From: Malacoplasma iowae
Lineage (GTDB): Bacteria > Bacillota_I > Bacilli_A > Mycoplasmatales > Mycoplasmoidaceae
Direction of reading: 5' to 3'
Length of the DNA stretch: 64,000 nt
NCBI RefSeq assembly: GCF_900660615.1
Contig: NZ_LR215023.1
Location: 434,001-498,000 of the forward strand
Shown piece by piece: positions 25,590 to 53,014 of this stretch; the stretch's first letter is position 1; the number at the start of each line of letters is the position of its first letter. The notes beneath the pieces are model-generated. The model ran no database searches. It had not been told where the DNA came from and was given only the letters and a program-made list of their open reading frames with translations. The position numbers were made by a program, and so were the translations under genes.

Positions 25590-25691
25590 TGCTGTATATC
25601 AAACTATGCAGCTTCAACCGCACTTATAGGTTTTTTAAACATACTTTGTATGTACCAATTGAGGCGAGTCTAAGTATAACATAGGAGGATA
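25590..25691 (+). promoter_or_regulatory. Probable L21 leader (5' UTR of rplU operon)
   Basis: Less AT-rich than its surroundings, with a CATACTTTGTATG hairpin and a conserved-looking tail before AGGAGG. Its position fits the L21 leader motif described in Firmicutes, thought to be autoregulatory. Assignment is from position and general appearance, not from an alignment. Confidence 0.45.
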
Positions 25692-35537: not shown

Positions 35538-36698
35538 GCTCGACTGACATGTGAAGTGCAACACTCGAAAAAGAGTGTGCACTTCATTTGTTTTGTTTGT
35601 AAGTGTTCACTAATAAAAAGATAATGAATATTAGGAGTGCTTATGAAAACTTATAAACATTTAACAAAAGAAGAAAGATGCTTAATTTATTTTCTTTGAA
35701 ATAAAGAAAAATATTCTATGAATAAGATTGCAAAAATCTTAAATAAAAACAAATCAACAATATCAAGAGAATTAAAAAGAAACACATCTTCAACAGGAAT
35801 TTATTATTCATCAAATGCTCACAAAAAATACATTAGAAGAAAATCAAATTGTCATATGTTTTTTATGTTGAAGTACAAAAACTTCACAGATCTTTTTATT
35901 CAAAAATTTAATCCTAAATCTCATGGTGTAGAAGCTACAATTTTTTGAATAAAAGAAAACTATCCATTAGTTAAAGTTCCAAGTGCTAGGCAAGTATTTA
36001 GATGAATCAATAGCAAGATTTGAAAGATACAAAGAAGAGATTGTTTAAGAAGAAAATATGTTAAAGGAAAAAGAAGAAAAATAGGTATATTTTCTAAAAT
36101 TGATGGAAAATACTGCATTCCTTATAGTCTAAGACCAGAAAAGATAAACAAAAGAAAAGAATTTGGACATTGAGAAGCTGATCTAATAGTTAGTAAAAGG
36201 CAAAGTGGTTATTACCACTTATTAACATTAGTAGAAAGAAAAACAAGGTTGGCAATTATTAGAAAAATAAAAGGTAAAAACGCTAGATCAATGATGGCTA
36301 AAATGTATACCATTATTCGAGATGAAAAACTCCCAATAAAAAGCATCACTGTTGATAATGGGTTAGAGTTTCAAATGATGGGAATAACTGCAAAACAATT
36401 CAACTTTAAAGTTTATTATTGCCAACCTTATTCTTCATTCCAAAGATGGTCCAACGAGAACATAAATGGGATAGTTAGAAGATGATATAAAAAAGGAACT
36501 GACTTCAGTTTAGTAAGTGAAGATAAAATAAAAACTCTTGAATGAAAAGTAAACAACATCCCAAGAAAAATGTTTGGTTATAAAACAGCTTACCAAATGT
36601 ATCAAGAAAATATTTAAAACAAAAAACTCTCAACTTATATTTCAAAGTCGAGAGTTTAATGTAACATTGAAGTGTTGCACTTCACATGTCAGTTAGGG
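35538..36698 (+). mobile_element. IS copy 3, IS30 family (IS1630-like), 1161 bp
   Basis: One base shorter than the other copies because an A run near the 3' end has six instead of seven A. The 5' end reads GCTCGACTGAC instead of GCTCGATTGAC. It is the most diverged of the five copies. Confidence 0.93.
35643..36617 (+). CDS. IS30-family transposase (copy 3), probably impaired
   Basis: 324 residues, frame intact under code 4, Asp180, Asp238 and Glu272 present. Three amino-acid changes against the other copies: Thr58 to Asn, an Asn to Lys before the first catalytic Asp, and Gly269 to Trp, which turns RGSNEN into RWSNEN three residues before the catalytic Glu. That Gly is part of a strongly conserved IS30 motif, so activity is doubtful. 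Confidence 0.9.
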
Positions 36699-38869: not shown

Positions 38870-40496
38870 ATGTATACTGTAGCAAATTATTTATTAGATA
38901 AAATTTCAAAACTAGGTGTTAAAAAAATATTTGGTGTTCCAGGTGATTTTAATTTAGAATTTTTAGACTTTATATTAAAAAATGATAAATTGGATTGAGT
39001 TGGAAGTGTTAATGAATTAAATGCAGCATATTGTGCTGATGGATATGCCAGAGTAAATGGTGTTGGTGTAGTTGTTACAACTTATGGTGTTGGTGAATTA
39101 AGTGCAATTAATGGAATTGCTGGTAGTTATAGTGAAGATATTCCAATTATTCATATTGTTGGTGTTCCTCCAACTTTTTTAGTTAATAGTAATAAAGTTG
39201 TGCATCATACTTTGGGAAATTATAAATTTGATGAATTTAAAAAAATTTATGAAAATGTAACTTGCCATCAAGTGTGAATTGATTTTATAAACCCAATAGA
39301 TCAAATTAATTCAGCAATTCAAAGTTGTATTATATATAAAAAACCAATTTACATTATGTTACCAACAGATGTTATGAAAATGGAAATTGGTCCTATAAAT
39401 AGAGATATTTATTTCCCAACAATTTATGATTTTGAATCTGTTAATAATGTGACAAATGATTTATATAATAAAATTAAGAATTCAAAACAAGCTGTAATTA
39501 TTGCTGGGAATAAAATTACAAGTTATAGATTGAAAAAATATTTTAATAGATTTGTTAATAATGCAAAAATATCAGTTGTTAATACAATGTATGGTAAAAG
39601 TAGTTTTGATGAAAGTAATGATTTTTTTGCAGGAATATATATAGGTAAAAATACAGCAGATAAACAACTTCAAGAATTTGTAGATAATGCAGATTTAATT
39701 ATTTCTGTTGGAAATAAATTTACAGATTTATCAAGTTCAAATTTTCAATTGGGATTTAATAAAGAAAAAATGTTTATCATTGATGATAAGTGTGTATGTT
39801 ATGATGGAAAACAAATTGATAATATTTTATTGAATTCAGTTGTTAAAAAATTATCTAATATGGAATTTAATTATGATGGTATAAACTATAAAGCGAAAAA
39901 TATTTTAAGTAAAAGTGTTGATCCAAAAGACAAGATTACTTATGATGATTTTTATTCAATATTGAATTCAACAATTAGTAATGATGATATTGTTGTGTCT
40001 GATATGGGAACATGTAGTTTTGCTGCTCAATATCTTAATTTAAAAGAGAATACAGAATTTATTATGCAACCATTTATATGCGTCAATTGGTTTTAGTTTA
40101 CCAGCTAGTATTGGTGTAAAAATGGCTAAATGAAACAGTAGAGTTATCAATATTATTGGAGATGGTGCTTTCAATATGACTTTAAATGAAATTGCAACTA
40201 TAGTTAGAAATAAAATACCAATGATAACATTCTTAATTAATAACAAAGGATACACGATTGAAAGAGTTATTCATGGTCCTAATGAAATTTATAATGATAT
40301 AGGTGTTATAGATTATTCAAAATTACTTGAAGGTTTTGATAATAAAAATAGACATATACTTTATTTTGATATTCTAACCAATGAAGACTTATTGAACTGT
40401 TTGATAAAAATTAGTGATATTGATGACAAATACATTTTTGTTAATGTAAATATTGATCCATTAGATATCCCTAAAAGTTTAAAAAGTGTGTTTTAA
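38870..40496 (+). pseudogene. pdc: Pyruvate/2-keto acid decarboxylase, frameshifted
   Basis: About 541 residues once the frame is joined. Thiamine-diphosphate enzyme of the pyruvate/indolepyruvate/ketoacid decarboxylase family: FGVPGDFNLEF, Glu49 in VNELNAAY, the diagnostic His112-His113 pair in VVHHTLGN, IIGDGAFNMT with the later INNKGYTIE. Frame 1 covers 38870-40096 and stops at TAG; the rest reads in another frame from about 40077 (YASIGFSLPA). Removing one base near 40076 restores QPF-YASIGFSLP, which matches QPLWGSIGYTFP of lactococcal decarboxylase. Either a recent pseudogene or a sequencing error. Product would be acetaldehyde from pyruvate, or a longer aldehyde. Confidence 0.85.
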
Positions 40497-40517: not shown

Positions 40518-41099
40518 TTATTTTCTAATATATTTTTTATAAATCGGTTTTAACTCATTTTTGATTTCTGAATTATCTAAAGTTGTTACAATTTTACAAC
40601 CACTATCTAATACATTTTTTTGAAATATAATTTCATTATTTTTTATTAGCTTATTAATCAGATTGTTAAATTCATTAAAATTAACATTAAGCTCATAAAT
40701 GTTTGTTTCTACTAAATTACATAATTGCGTTTCATTTATTAAAGAGTTTGCAGCATTAAAATAACTTCTTGTTAATAACCCTAACCCAAGCTTTGATTTA
40801 CCCATAAATCTTATTACAACTATTAAGCAATTATATAAGTTGTTATTTTGAATAACATCAAAAATTTTCTTTCCACTAGATCCTGATGGTTCACTACTTT
40901 CTTCAATCTTTATTTCATTATTAATTAATCTATATGCATAACATATATGTTTTGCTTTAGGGTTATTAATAGTTATTTCATTTATGATTTTTTTGATTTC
41001 ATCATTGTTTTCAACATAAAAACTATATGTTGTAAATTTTGATGTTTTTACAACAAGTGTATTATGAGTATTAGTTTTTATTGTGTTAAATGTTTTCAT
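40518..41099 (-). CDS. YigZ/IMPACT-family protein
   Basis: 193 residues. N-terminal IMPACT domain with KHICYAYRL, ESSEPSGSSGKKI and VVIRFMGKSKLGLGLLTRSY, the hallmark of the UPF0029/YigZ family; C-terminal small domain. Role in bacteria unclear (linked to translation regulation in eukaryotes). ATG at 41099 preferred; a TTG at 41114 is possible. Converges with the decarboxylase; the short AGGA-TCCT hairpin at 40500-40518 with T run may serve both. Confidence 0.88.
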   Translation of the reverse strand: MKTFNTIKTNTHNTLVVKTSKFTTYSFYVENNDEIKKIINEITINNPKAKHICYAYRLINNEIKIEESSEPSGSSGKKIFDVIQNNNLYNCLIVVIRFMGKSKLGLGLLTRSYFNAANSLINETQLCNLVETNIYELNVNFNEFNNLINKLIKNNEIIFQKNVLDSGCKIVTTLDNSEIKNELKPIYKKYIRK

Positions 41100-41233
41100 A
41101 TCAATTTTATACAACTAATAAAATTATAATTTTTATTTCTATATAATATTTATATAAAGTTAATTTATTCAAGTTAAATTAAGTATTGCAGGTAAATGAA
41201 TGAATATAACACTTTTTTTAAAAAAATGTAGTC

Positions 41234-41262
41234 TTGAATTATTTTTCTAAAAATTGTTTAAT
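41234..41262 (+). promoter_or_regulatory. Candidate promoter of a non-coding RNA
   Basis: TTGAAT (41234-41239), 17 bases, then TTTAAT (41257-41262). Predicted start near 41269, where the sequence changes from AT-only to mixed composition. Confidence 0.45.
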
Positions 41263-41268
41263 ATATAT

Positions 41269-41557
41269 GTACGGTGATTAGATAATAAAAGTATGATTTA
41301 ATTTCTTGAAACTAACGTGAAAATTAAAATAATGTTTATATGGCGTTAGGTATAAAAAATTGTTTGACCAGCAATGATATATATCAATTTTTATATTAGT
41401 TGATAGAGCTTAATGAGTATAATAAAACAAAAGCTGTGCAAGGGTTTGTGAATAAAACAGATATTATATGTATTTTATTTTGTCGAGAAAATGTACATCT
41501 AATAACTTCTGGTTTATGATGCAACGTGCGGGACTGATCGGGTGTCTCGCTTTTTTT
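41269..41557 (+). ncRNA. Candidate structured RNA, about 290 nt, unidentified
   Basis: No coding frame. Composition is more balanced than the flanks, with several stems: CTAACG/CGTTAG (41312-41317, 41344-41349), AAAAATTG/CAATTTTT (41355-41362, 41385-41392), ACAAA/TTTGT and ATGTA/TACAT, ending in a GC-rich hairpin GCGGGAC/GTCTCGC with seven T. It lacks the hallmark sequences of tmRNA, RNase P RNA and SRP RNA that I know. It could be a free small RNA, or the leader of the membrane gene at 41694. Confidence 0.5.
41528..41557 (+). terminator. GC-rich intrinsic terminator
   Basis: Seven-pair stem GCGGGAC / GTCTCGC (one G-U pair), 9-base loop, then TTTTTTT. Unusually GC-rich for this genome. Confidence 0.85.
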
Positions 41558-42339
41558 ATTTATATAAACCTAACACTGAGAAAATAATTTTATTAAATGT
41601 ATAAAAATATTATTTTTAATTCTAATAATAATGAAAATATGTATCTAAAGATGATGTTTATAGTTTAGAATATTTGCATTAAAAAGGAATTATATGGAAA
41701 ATCAAAAAGAAACAAAAATTGAGAATCAAGAAATAATTGAGAATCAAGAAATTCGAAAAAATATTACTGATTATTTTAACAGTAAGAGAGAATCTGGTGA
41801 ACTTTTTAAGTTAAAAATTTCCCAAGATAATTATGATAAACTTAAAAATACTAGTGATTTCAAAGAGTATTCTAAAAGTATCTTTGTAAACAAAGCAAAT
41901 AAAAGGATATATAAGTTTTTTTGATCTAATTTTTTTATTGAATGAATTTTATTTTTATTTTGAATTGCAACTATATTTGCTGCTATTGATTCTTTTTCTA
42001 ACAAAGACTTGCTTAGTACAAAAGGAATTGTTTTCATAGCTGCAAGTGCATTCTATATTTTATATAGCGGATTGACGCAATTATTTATGTTTAATCTATA
42101 TAATAGTTGGCAAGTTGATTCATCTACTAACAATAGATTGGATATTAAAAAAAATTGAAATTGTAAGTTTTTTGTTGAAGAGTATTTGAAATGTTCTTTT
42201 GAATTTGTAAATAATGTAGAAATATCTGAGGAGAGAAAACAAGAGTGAGAAAAAAATTTTTCTGCATCCCAATATAAGATTCAAAAAAAGGGAAAAGATC
42301 TTGAAAACAAGAAACCTTCTTTTTTAGTAAAGAAAATGA

Positions 42340-42380
42340 ATAAAGAAAATTATATTAGAAAATCTAAAATATTTTCTTTA
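42340..42380. repeat. Left target duplication of IS copy 4 (41 bp inverted repeat)
   Basis: Begins ATAAAGAAAATTATATTAG and ends with nearly its reverse complement. Unlike the other targets it lies inside a coding region. Copy at 43543-43583. Confidence 0.9.
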
Positions 42381-43542
42381 GCTCGATTGACATGTGAAGT
42401 GCAACACTCAAAAAAGAGTGTGCACTTCATTTGTTTTGTTTGTAAGTGTTCACTAATAAAAAGATAATGAATATTAGGAGTGCTTATGAAAACTTATAAA
42501 CATTTAACAAAAGAAGAAAGATGCTTAATTTATTTTCTTTGAAATAAAGAAAAATATTCTATGAATAAGATTGCAAAAATCTTAAATAAAAACAAATCAA
42601 CAATATCAAGAGAATTAAAAAGAAACACATCTTCAACAGGGATTTATTATTCATCAACTGCTCACAAAAAATACATTAGAAGAAAATCAAATTGTCATAT
42701 GTTTTTTATGTTGAAGTACAAAAACTTCACAGATCTTTTTATTCAAAAATTTAATCCTAAATCTCATGGTGTAGAAGCTACAATTTTTTGAATAAAAGAA
42801 AACTATCCGTTAGTTAAAGTTCCAAGTGCTAGGCAAGTATTTAGATGAATCAATAGCAAGATTTGAAAGATACAAAGAAGAGATTGTTTAAGAAGAAAAT
42901 ATGTTAAAGGAAAAAGAAGAAAAATAGGTATATTTTCTAAAATTGATGGAAAATACTGCATTCCTTATAGTCTAAGACCAGAAAAGATAAACAATAGAAA
43001 AGAATTTGGACATTGAGAAGCTGATCTAATAGTTAGTAAAAGGCAAAGTGGTTATTACCACTTATTGACATTAGTGGAAAGAAAAACAAGGTTGGCAATT
43101 ATTAGAAAAATAAAAGGGAAGAACGCTAGATCAATGATGGCTAAAATGTATACCATTATTCGAGATGAAAAACTCCCAATAAAAAGCATCACTGTTGATA
43201 ATGGGTTAGAGTTTCAAATGATGGGAATAACTGCAAAACAATTCAACTTTAAAGTTTATTATTGCCAACCTTATTCTTCATTCCAAAGAGGGTCCAACGA
43301 GAACATAAATGGGATAGTTAGAAGATGATATAAAAAAGGAACTGACTTCAGTTTAGTAAGTGAAGATAAAATAAAAACTCTTGAATGAAAAGTAAACAAC
43401 ATCCCAAGAAAAATGTTTGGTTATAAAACAGCTTACCAAATGTATCAAGAAAATATTTAAAACAAAAAAACTCTCAACTTATATTTCAAAGTCGAGAGTT
43501 TAATGTAACATTGAAGTGTTGCACTTCACATGTCAGTTAGGG
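42381..43542 (+). mobile_element. IS copy 4, IS30 family (IS1630-like), 1162 bp
   Basis: Same ends and length as copies 1, 2 and 5. The 5' end hairpin (TGAAGTGCAACACTC at 42395-42409 with GAGTGTGCACTTCA at 42416-42429) and the 3' AACTCTC hairpin are intact. It inactivates the membrane protein gene. Confidence 0.93.
42486..43460 (+). CDS. IS30-family transposase (copy 4)
   Basis: 324 residues with catalytic Asp180, Asp238 and Glu272 and intact RGSNEN motif. AGGAG upstream of the ATG; a weak promoter (TTGTAA, 18 bases, GATAAT) lies before it. Looks functional. Confidence 0.93.
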
Positions 43543-43583
43543 ATAAAGAAAATTATATTAGAAAATCTAAAATATTTTCTTTA
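43543..43583. repeat. Right target duplication of IS copy 4
   Basis: Exact copy of 42340-42380. Confidence 0.9.
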
Positions 43584-43670
43584 TTAGTAACTGATTGTTT
43601 TTGAGTTTTTAGTGGATTCTCTATTATTTCAATTATAGTTTTAGTGATTATTGTTACAACTATTTTATAA

Positions 43671-44502
43671 AAAAAATATATTTATAAATTTTGTTCTATA
43701 TCTAAGAAACTATTTTAAAATTTTTCTAAAAAATGTTGTCTTTGTTAATTTATTTATAATATGTTTTTTTAATATGACTCTTAAATCTATAATTTTTATT
43801 TTGTTAAGTTAAATTACGTTGTATGAATTGCATTTTTATTTGATGCAATTCATTTTTTGTCAAACTATTGAATTTAGGAATTTTTGTTTTAGATATATAT
43901 GTATTTTATTTTAGTGGAAACATTATATGTTAAATTACATATTTAAAATAAAGGTATTAATTAAAAAAAGTTGAATTATGAAAACATAAATATAATTAAT
44001 GATAACTATGATAGTATGCAATTTTTGGAGAAACTCATTTTTTATATTAGGTTATCCATTAAATTAATTCTTAAGAACCATTTTATATAACATAATCTAT
44101 CAAAAATTATATAGTCAATTGATTTATTGAGTTAATTAAGAGTAGTTTTTTAATTATGATTTTATTTATGGATTAAGTGTACATACATATATTTGTTTTT
44201 ACAAGTTTAATTGAATTAAATGCATATTAACACTATTAACTTTGATATTTTTTACTAAATTTCAATTTTCATCTTATTTATTACATGTAACTCTCTTTAT
44301 TAGAATTTATTTCAAACTTTTTTCTAGATCTAGTTTCTTCAAAAATTTGTACACTACCTATAAAATTGGGACAGTACATAAAACTTTAAACGAAGTTTTT
44401 CAAATATTAGATAAGTTATGTAATTTTTATTATTTTTTAAAACTTTTAATCCAGGAAAACTATTTATTTAAATTATAATTAGCTTGTAATTAGGGAGTTT
44501 AT
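43671..44502. other. Long intergenic region, 832 bp
   Basis: AT-rich with no convincing gene. It holds a strong terminator at 43823-43857 (ATGAATTGCAT / ATGCAATTCAT, then T), probably for the IS-split gene. A short open frame at 44242-44478 has no start codon or ribosome site and looks spurious. TAGGGAG precedes the ATG at 44503. Confidence 0.5.
43823..43857 (+). terminator. Intrinsic terminator
   Basis: Eleven-pair perfect stem ATGAATTGCAT / ATGCAATTCAT, 9-base loop, followed by T residues. Confidence 0.85.
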
Positions 44503-45846
44503 ATGATTAAAAAAAGAAATAAATCAATTGTTTGAGCAAGTTTATTTAGTGTATTATTTGCTTCATTTTCTGCACCTTTTATATATAGTAACGCAAGTAA
44601 TAATAGTCAACATATAGTAAATAATTATAATTTTGACTATGATGATAGTTTATAAAAAATTTCTGATCTAACATTAAACAAACAGAAAGAAATTTTTAAA
44701 AATGTTAAAGTTGATGATATATTGACGGAAATTAAAAATCCAAATAGCATTCTTTATAATTCTACGCAAGGATTAAATAACAATTTGGATTATCATGACT
44801 ATAGTAAAATGAATGTTTATACAGAAATAAATAATAATATTGATGAATTTAAATCAATAGCTACGAACATACTAAACGGAACTACAAATGTTAATTTTAT
44901 AAAAGAAAATTTAGATAATTTTAAAAATAATAATCCTTATGAATATGGCAAAATTATAGAAAAAATTAATAAGACAATAGTAAATTTTAATGCGGAAAAT
45001 AACAATAATAATTTAATTAATTATGATAAAAACATACATATGAATTCTATGCTTCGTTCATCATCTAATAAAATAGAGGATATAGTTGTAGAATTTGAGG
45101 ATAATGAAAAAATTACTATTACTGCAGATCAAATTGCTTTTTTCACTAAGTCAGAGAAATTTTTGTCTAGATTATCCATATATAGAGACAAAACATATGG
45201 TGTTGCAGTTGCATCTGCGACTTTAACAGCAGCATCATGAGCTATAGCAGCATTTTATTGAGGTGCATGATGAATGTTTGGAGGTAATATACCATTTGCT
45301 GTAGCTGCAACTGTACAAGCGGGTATTTCAACTTACCTATCAGTAAGAAGTTTTGATGAATATTACGATATAAGAGATAGAGTAAAAGATTTAAGTGACG
45401 TTGTTTACTCTAAAGAATTTAAAGATATGAAACTTATATCTGAGTGCTTATTGGATGAAGCGAGAAATCAGTTAAAAAATTCTGCTATAAATTTTATTAA
45501 ATTTATAGCAAAATTTACCAATGTTATTCAATTATATAAGAAAGCTATTGAATTAATAATAAAAAAAATCTCTATTGAATTTGAAAAATATATTAATACA
45601 ATTGTAAATAATACATCATGAAAAAATGTTATAAGTTTTGCTAATAAAACTCCTTTCAAATCTTTAATAATGCAAATAAATAAAAAGTCTACAGAATTTG
45701 TAACAGAAATAGTAACTAAAAAAGCTTTAATGAAAGGTTTGAGTTGAGCATCTAATGCAATTCTTGTCATTGATATAATCATAAGTATATCTAGTTTTTT
45801 TATTGATGTAGGAATATTTAATAATAGTGAACTATCATCTTGATAA
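44503..45846 (+). pseudogene. Secreted protein gene with an in-frame TAA at codon 51
   Basis: Under one continuous frame, 447 codons with a single interruption: TAA at 44653-44655. Upstream part is a signal peptide (WASLFSVLFASFSAPFIYSN) and 20 more residues. After the stop the frame stays open for almost 400 codons with normal codon use. The protein is Asn-rich, then has hydrophobic Ala/Gly/Trp-rich segments at about 232-280 (VAVASATLTAASW, GAWWMFGGNIPFAVAA) and another near the C-terminus, which suggests membrane insertion. No family recognised. A recent nonsense mutation or a sequence error. Confidence 0.7.
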
Positions 45847-45891
45847 GATGCATTTTTAATTCTTAGTGGCAAATATAAATGGAGTTTTCTT

Positions 45892-46824
45892 ATGGAAGGC
45901 AATAGCACAATATATAACAATGAAGTTAATAATGATAAATTAGACACAGAGAGTGAAATTAAAACTAATACTAAAAAGAAAAAAAAGAAATTTGATATAG
46001 AAGAATTAAAAAAAGGATACCCTTTATATATTTCATACCCCAAATCATATTATGTATGTTTAGATGAAATTGATGAAATATCTAAAACTAATGAAATTAA
46101 AAAATTATTGTCTTATAATAATTCATTTTTAAAAATAAAGAAAAACAAACATAAATTTATTTTTAACCTTATGTTATTCATTCTTTCAACATTGATTGGA
46201 CCAATGGTTTGAATTGCGGTTTTATTTTTGGTTATTTATATTACATTGATTTTAAATCATAACAATAAAAGATCAGCTTTTTTAGATTATGGAATAGCAG
46301 TTATTTTTTTATGAATATATAGACTTTTCAGTTTGTGTATTTGACAACTATCTTGATTAAAAAAATTTAATCCTTCAAAATATAAAGAAAGTTATCCATA
46401 TATTTCTAAAAGTCCTTTTACCATAGCTAGTTCTTCTTTTATGTCAATTTTGCTTTGATATTCTTGTAACTTATTTTATAAAAATTTTAAAATCAATATT
46501 ACAAATGATAATAAATTTAAACCTATTGATAAGAGTGAAGATTTTAAAAATTATATTTGTTCAACATGAACTTTTTACCAACAAAGTTTAGATTCTATTC
46601 CATTTATTAATTGTGATAAAAATGATTTTAAAGCCAAATGTACTTATGTTGAAAACATCGGTGATAAAGATCAATTATATGTGAGAAAAGGTTTTGAAAA
46701 GAAGCTAAATTTTTTAGATAATTTATATTTTTTATTTCTTTTAAAACAGTGAACGCTTCTAATTCCACATGTTTGTATTTATGGAACAGTAGCATGATAT
46801 ATTTATCCATTATTAATTAGATAA
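45892..46824 (+). CDS. Multi-pass membrane protein, unknown
   Basis: 310 residues. Hydrophilic, Lys-rich N-terminus (TKKKKKKFDIEELKK), then membrane helices at about 88-125, 132-155, 175-195 and a final one at the C-terminus, separated by a loop with four Cys residues. GGAG precedes the ATG. Starts 46 bases after the secreted-protein gene on the same strand and ends in a terminator, so the two are probably one operon. Confidence 0.7.
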
Positions 46825-51852: not shown

Positions 51853-53014
51853 CCCTAACTGACATGTGAAGTGCAACACTTCAATGTTACATTAAACTCT
51901 CGACTTTGAAATATAAGTTGAGAGTTTTTTTGTTTTAAATATTTTCTTGATACATTTGGTAAGCTGTTTTATAACCAAACATTTTTCTTGGGATGTTGTT
52001 TACTTTTCATTCAAGAGTTTTTATTTTATCTTCACTTACTAAACTGAAGTCAGTTCCTTTTTTATATCATCTTCTAACTATCCCATTTATGTTCTCGTTG
52101 GACCCTCTTTGGAATGAAGAATAAGGTTGGCAATAATAAACTTTAAAGTTGAATTGTTTTGCAGTTATTCCCATCATTTGAAACTCTAACCCATTATCAA
52201 CAGTGATGCTTTTTATTGGGAGTTTTTCATCTCGAATAATGGTATACATTTTAGCCATCATTGATCTAGCGTTCTTCCCTTTTATTTTTCTAATAATTGC
52301 CAACCTTGTTTTTCTTTCCACTAATGTCAATAAGTGGTAATAACCACTTTGCCTTTTACTAACTATTAGATCAGCTTCTCAATGTCCAAATTCTTTTCTA
52401 TTGTTTATCTTTTCTGGTCTTAGACTATAAGGAATGCAGTATTTTCCATCAATTTTAGAAAATATACCTATTTTTCTTCTTTTTCCTTTAACATATTTTC
52501 TTCTTAAACAATCTCTTCTTTGTATCTTTCAAATCTTGCTATTGATTCATCTAAATACTTGCCTAGCACTTGGAACTTTAACTAACGGATAGTTTTCTTT
52601 TATTCAAAAAATTGTAGCTTCTACACCATGAGATTTAGGATTAAATTTTTGAATAAAAAGATCTGTGAAGTTTTTGTACTTCAACATAAAAAACATATGA
52701 CAATTTGATTTTCTTCTAATGTATTTTTTGTGAGCAGTTGATGAATAATAAATCCCTGTTGAAGATGTGTTTCTTTTTAATTCTCTTGATATTGTTGATT
52801 TGTTTTTATTTAAGATTTTTGCAATCTTATTCATAGAATATTTTTCTTTATTTCAAAGAAAATAAATTAAGCATCTTTCTTCTTTTGTTAAATGTTTATA
52901 AGTTTTCATAAGCACTCCTAATATTCATTATCTTTTTATTAGTGAACACTTACAAACAAAACAAATGAAGTGCACACTCTTTTTTGAGTGTTGCACTTCA
53001 CATGTCAATCGAGC
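51853..53014 (-). mobile_element. IS copy 5, IS30 family (IS1630-like), 1162 bp
   Basis: Same element as copies 1, 2 and 4. It lies in inverted orientation to copy 4, so the two bracket the accessory locus 43543-51852. Confidence 0.93.
51935..52909 (-). CDS. IS30-family transposase (copy 5)
   Basis: 324 residues with catalytic Asp180, Asp238 and Glu272; RGSNEN intact. No disabling change seen. Confidence 0.93.

Follow-up and report, generated by a model that had tools for sequence, protein, structure and literature searches.

The intergenic region between yigZ and a split membrane gene

The window analysed here is a 64-kb stretch (C1:434001-498000) of the 1,278,574-base genome of Malacoplasma iowae, and its genes are open throughout in genetic code 4. 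It contains an intergenic region of 579 bases (41115-41693) that separates yigZ (UPF0029; 40518-41114, minus strand; PF01205, E 6.5e-25), the divergent upstream neighbour, from a membrane-protein gene that begins at 41694 on the plus strand. The 5' part of this gene is an open reading frame in code 4 (41694-42386, plus strand) and is split off by an IS30-family insertion. The nearest upstream plus-strand genes end at 40496, with yigZ intervening on the minus strand. About 1 kb beyond their end, within the intergenic region, lies a candidate small RNA of ~289 nt (41269-41557, plus strand), marked by a step in base composition and by a sharp predicted structural ensemble.

The G+C content of 41269-41557 is 28.4%, compared with 13.0% in 41115-41268 and 14.9% in 41560-41693, and it is 24.6% when the terminator described below is left out. 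The composition had been called balanced in the initial annotation; this holds in so far as the stretch is less A+T-rich than both flanks, but it remains 72% A+T despite the step. No open reading frame in 41115-41693, small ones included, has a Pfam match above cut-off, in agreement with the earlier description of a non-coding stretch of ~290 bases between yigZ and the split membrane gene. Open reading frames within the candidate are at most 55 codons long, and the longest one extends through the terminator. Judged by these reading frames, 41269-41557 is non-coding, as is expected of a stand-alone intergenic small RNA.

Several features of the neighbourhood are also of interest. The membrane-protein cluster (41694-46824) has diverged paralogous copies near rnpB, both in the same genome (C1:1119000-1138500) and in the sister species G007, and its first gene, which starts at 41694, shares ~30% protein identity with its paralogue. 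The IS30-family element that interrupts this gene (42340-43583, with the transposase at 42480-43460) is bordered on both sides by an exact duplication of 41 bp. This is unusually long, as is the case for IS1630-type elements. Near-identical transposase copies occur at 35637-36617 (plus strand) and 51935-52915 (minus strand). On the other side of yigZ, a pyruvate-decarboxylase-like TPP enzyme gene (38870-40496) is broken into two frames (38870-40096 and 40122-40496), while the sister species has an intact version of 541 amino acids.

Terminator, predicted fold and start site

The candidate ends in a predicted intrinsic terminator (41528-41557, plus strand) that was identified by sequence scan and pair probability. 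It consists of a G+C-rich stem of seven pairs, a 9-nt loop and a run of seven T (GCGGGAC-TGATCGGGT-GTCTCGC-TTTTTTT). A stock scanner missed it because the loop limit of that scanner is 8. We searched both strands of the 64 kb for strong terminators, defined by a stem of at least six pairs, at least five G-C pairs and at least six T. The hairpin at 41528-41557 is the single match, and four simulated 64-kb sequences contain none, which bears out the strong GC-rich terminator of the initial annotation. On its sequence, the candidate possesses the intrinsic terminator that a stand-alone intergenic small RNA should have. The pair probability of the terminator is 0.99-1.0 in the isolated RNA.

The predicted fold contains two further parts. 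The 5' domain (41269-41439; pair probabilities 0.76-1.0, most above 0.9) comprises a closing helix (41269-41275/41433-41439), a large internal loop and a long arm (41304-41325/41386-41407) that carries two terminal hairpins (41330-41348 and 41359-41375). It is followed by a 3' hairpin domain (41447-41523; pair probabilities ~0.7-1.0). When flanking sequence is added, the helices are mostly kept and the 5' domain holds from 41234 onward. In the whole 579-nt intergenic context, the 5' domain is weakened to 0.62-0.81, with 0.62 for the closing helix, and the basal helix of the 3' hairpin domain falls to ~0.5 in longer 3' context.

The minimum free energy of 41269-41557 is -58.4 kcal/mol, with a z-score of -1.4 to -1.8 (about -1.7), compared with -4.2 for RNase P RNA, -3.4 for tmRNA and -3.1 for SRP RNA of the same genome. 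Taken alone, the predicted free energy is a weak signal and appears unremarkable. The ensemble is more distinctive: 42% of bases are paired at p > 0.9, against 39% for both RNase P RNA and tmRNA of the same genome and a shuffle mean of 14%. This share is matched by 0 of 150 shuffles and attained by two of the 876 stretches of equal length into which the window was sampled, and two of 150 shuffles equal the candidate when the terminator is removed; the fold statistics are somewhat optimistic because the boundaries 41269-41557 were picked by eye in the initial annotation. The predicted ensemble thus seems to be about as sharp as those of the RNase P RNA and tmRNA of this genome. The opposite strand folds at chance level (z -0.39), so the fold signal belongs to the terminator-bearing strand. 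The several stems noted earlier, for which an RNAfold check had been suggested, are recovered as a well-defined predicted fold, albeit one with a z-score of about -1.7.

The start of the RNA is less distinct. The initial annotation proposed a promoter of its own with 17-base spacing (TTGAAT, 17 bases, TTTAAT; 41234-41262, plus strand), and this putative site is weak. The 800-base region around it contains 11 promoter-like sites, where 8.1 +/- 2.9 are expected, and 41234-41275 lacks any -10 site that has A2 and T6 and agrees at five or more of the six positions; the proposed promoter is not distinguishable from chance. A start near 41269 is instead suggested by the composition step and by the pairing of the first base (41269 with 41439, p 0.99).

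Searches for relatives

No Rfam 15 family matches the candidate region at its gathering score. At E <= 10, the region yields only noise (i.e. mir-553, E 0.36, and the L20 leader, E 5.6, both far under cut-off). This Infernal scan had been named as the check that could overturn the initial annotation. Its result, together with the predicted fold and the strong terminator, leaves the proposal of a structured RNA of no recognised family standing. The sole Rfam match within the window is an L21 leader (RF00559, 51.6 bits) at 25606-25681. RNase P RNA (C1:1127380-1127728, minus strand), tmRNA (C1:800705-801098, minus strand) and SRP RNA (C1:868685-868781, plus strand) each have their own copy elsewhere in the genome. 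All three lie outside the window and are rejected as identities of the candidate, in line with the earlier statement that it lacks their landmarks.

Sequence comparison gave no homologue in a BLAST search of 59 relatives and 320 genomes of the order; the hits obtained, with E values of roughly 1e-6 to 1e-4, correspond to short A+T-rich segments. Nor did a covariance model built from the single sequence find a relative in 95 genomes of the family, and no relative occurs in the phage and plasmid collections searched. Exact-pattern 16-mer matches in viral and genome contigs were judged to be chance, as was a 20-mer match in Kribbella, a distant actinobacterium. Likewise, yigZ as query against genome contigs found no relative, and the own genome contains no long antisense match to the candidate.

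As a positive control, RNase P RNA, tmRNA and SRP RNA were recovered by blastn (E <= 1e-15) in every congener locus tested. Since these housekeeping RNAs are found in congeners and the candidate is not, it is not conserved in the manner of a housekeeping RNA. However, the tracrRNA of this genome is likewise invisible to BLAST in the cas loci of congeners, so a missing match does not prove the absence of a fast-evolving homologue.

The comparison of gene order gave no positional homologue. In congeners, the pyruvate-decarboxylase-like gene and yigZ follow each other on a single strand, separated at most by a membrane gene. The sister species G007 keeps the genes on both sides of the locus, and these flanks align with 83-92% DNA identity over the matched stretches. 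It has neither yigZ, nor the candidate RNA, nor the first membrane gene in orthologous form; its assembly is a draft (94% complete), so loss of the block is likely rather than certain. On present data, the candidate is most likely restricted to one species or lineage, as far as sequence comparison can tell. The earlier suggestion of a mollicute-specific small RNA was too broad in its range, given that no relative occurs in the 320 genomes of the order or the 95 of the family.

A candidate small RNA and alternative explanations

We favour the interpretation, at a probability of roughly 0.55, that 41269-41557 encodes a candidate stand-alone, lineage-restricted small RNA. Transcription would begin near 41269, yield a ~289-nt RNA in which a branched 5' domain is followed by a 3' hairpin, and halt at 41528-41557, sparing the membrane gene, as the stability of the terminator suggests. 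Such an RNA would most probably act in trans as a regulator, or through protein binding; no target was found. The points in favour include (i) the unique terminator, (ii) the two-sided composition step and (iii) the sharp ensemble; those against are (i) the weak free-energy z-score, (ii) the chance-level promoter, (iii) the lack of a homologue and (iv) the absence from the G007 draft. In common with bacterial intergenic small RNAs that end in a terminator, the candidate lies in the spacer of divergent genes, is non-coding and structured, has a G+C-rich hairpin followed by a U run at its 3' end, and is confined to one species or lineage. It differs from typical examples in that its promoter is not recognisable, and ~290 nt is at the long end for this group. 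The candidate would thus be ordinary in kind, and an orphan small RNA is plausible but unproven.

Genome-reduced mollicutes have few transcription factors, and a dedicated, strongly terminated RNA, if real, would be a candidate regulator in such a factor-poor organism. In the annotation of one Malacoplasma iowae genome, three non-coding RNAs are listed (PMC9872633). This equals the number of housekeeping RNAs located in the present analysis (RNase P RNA, tmRNA and SRP RNA), and any fourth would thus be new. As a single orphan candidate with no assigned function, it carries limited weight.

A regulatory leader had also been considered in the initial annotation, and the candidate could, with a rather low probability, be an attenuator that controls transcription of the membrane gene starting at 41694. 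By default, the 5' end (GUACGGU) would hold GCUGUGC (41433-41439, plus strand) and the terminator would form; a ligand, a protein or a stalled polymerase might then open the 5' helix, upon which GCUGUGC would take the terminator arm at 41526-41531 and allow readthrough. The candidate is on the same strand as the gene and ends 137 nt upstream of it. Duplex energies mark GCUGUGC as a partner of either the 5' end (-9.3 kcal/mol) or the 5' arm of the terminator (-7.0 kcal/mol), i.e. as a possible antiterminator in mutually exclusive helices, and predicted transcripts ending at 41541-41544 populate both. However, the antiterminated full-length fold (41434-41439/41526-41531) is less stable by 8.3 kcal/mol, and an alternative pairing of six pairs arises easily by chance. 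The 5' end also resembles the terminator arm, but 94% of random windows do so at least as well; the resemblance is not significant, and the two were rejected as a repeat. Because the pair probability of the terminator is ~1 in the complete RNA, termination ahead of 41694 would be the default. Two -10-like sites lie between the terminator and the gene (TATAGT at 41659 and TAGAAT at 41666), so that the gene could do without the transcript of the candidate. On inspection, no such leader precedes the paralogous gene or the congener copies, which indicates that the element does not travel with the gene family, and the gene itself is interrupted by the insertion sequence. Terminator/antiterminator leaders such as the L20 leader (RF00558) share with the candidate a structured RNA, a terminator before a co-oriented gene and a possible antiterminator. 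The candidate differs in its RF00558 score (14.4 bits, where 58.7 is the gathering score), in the gene, which encodes an unrelated membrane protein, and in the spacer of 137 nt.

It is unlikely that the locus encodes no functional RNA at all and is an ordinary divergent intergenic region, in which the terminator punctuates spurious or upstream plus-strand transcription. The weak free-energy signal, a promoter at chance level and the complete lack of conservation in the genomes searched agree with such an explanation. Against it, both the step in base composition and the sharpness of the ensemble span all 289 bases and thus extend beyond the terminator, as the shuffles without it indicate. There is also no obvious transcript for the terminator to end, because the plus-strand genes stop ~1 kb upstream and yigZ runs in the opposite direction. 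A new RNA class that is confined to, or arose in, one mollicute lineage is improbable; it would comprise a 289-nt RNA absent from Rfam that senses a ligand or protein by a switch in which its 5' end exchanges partners with the arm of its own terminator.

An unrecognised 6S RNA is very improbable. With its closing stem, large internal loop and long arm, the 5' domain resembles 6S RNA (RF00013) in outline, and the slot is empty: RF00013 matches none of 79 mollicute genomes (this genome and 78 relatives), while Escherichia coli, Bacillus subtilis and others are positive, and 6S RNA seems to be lost or unrecognisable in the order. However, the region has no RF00013 match at E <= 10, the candidate shows no conservation among congeners, unlike housekeeping RNAs, its arm is branched and its closing stem has just seven pairs.

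We regard a CRISPR-associated RNA (i.e. a tracrRNA or an scaRNA-like guide for the type II system of this genome) as the least credible identity, although the genome has Cas9 (C1:700091-703468) and an array with 67 matches to the repeat GTTTTAGTTCACATGGATATGGTATCAAAACAAAAC, both Cas9 and the candidate are missing from the sister species, and the candidate contains TGTGAATAAAAC, a near-match to the end of the repeat. A tracrRNA is disfavoured by the canonical tracrRNA that adjoins cas9 (C1:699964-700044; repeat pairing -45 kcal/mol) and by chance-level complementarity: the anti-repeat pairing of the candidate is -18 to -19.5 kcal/mol, which 9-10% of 289-nt stretches equal. An scaRNA is defined by a repeat-like segment that pairs with tracrRNA, plus a start site and a terminator (PMC6199352). 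This identity is disfavoured as well, since random stretches match the identity of the candidate to the repeat in 51% of cases (anti-repeat 5%, tracrRNA 7%) and ~10% pair with tracrRNA equally well. The candidate resembles the tracrRNA of this genome in being structured, in its G+C-rich intrinsic terminator and in being invisible to BLAST in congeners, but it has no significant anti-repeat and lies ~225 kb from cas9. Among the first 30 spacer matches listed, none is strong to the window or to other examined loci. Mollicute tracrRNAs are usually located in the cas locus (PMC6882279); the type II CRISPR-Cas locus of this genome spans C1:693000-712000, with its tracrRNA on the minus strand.
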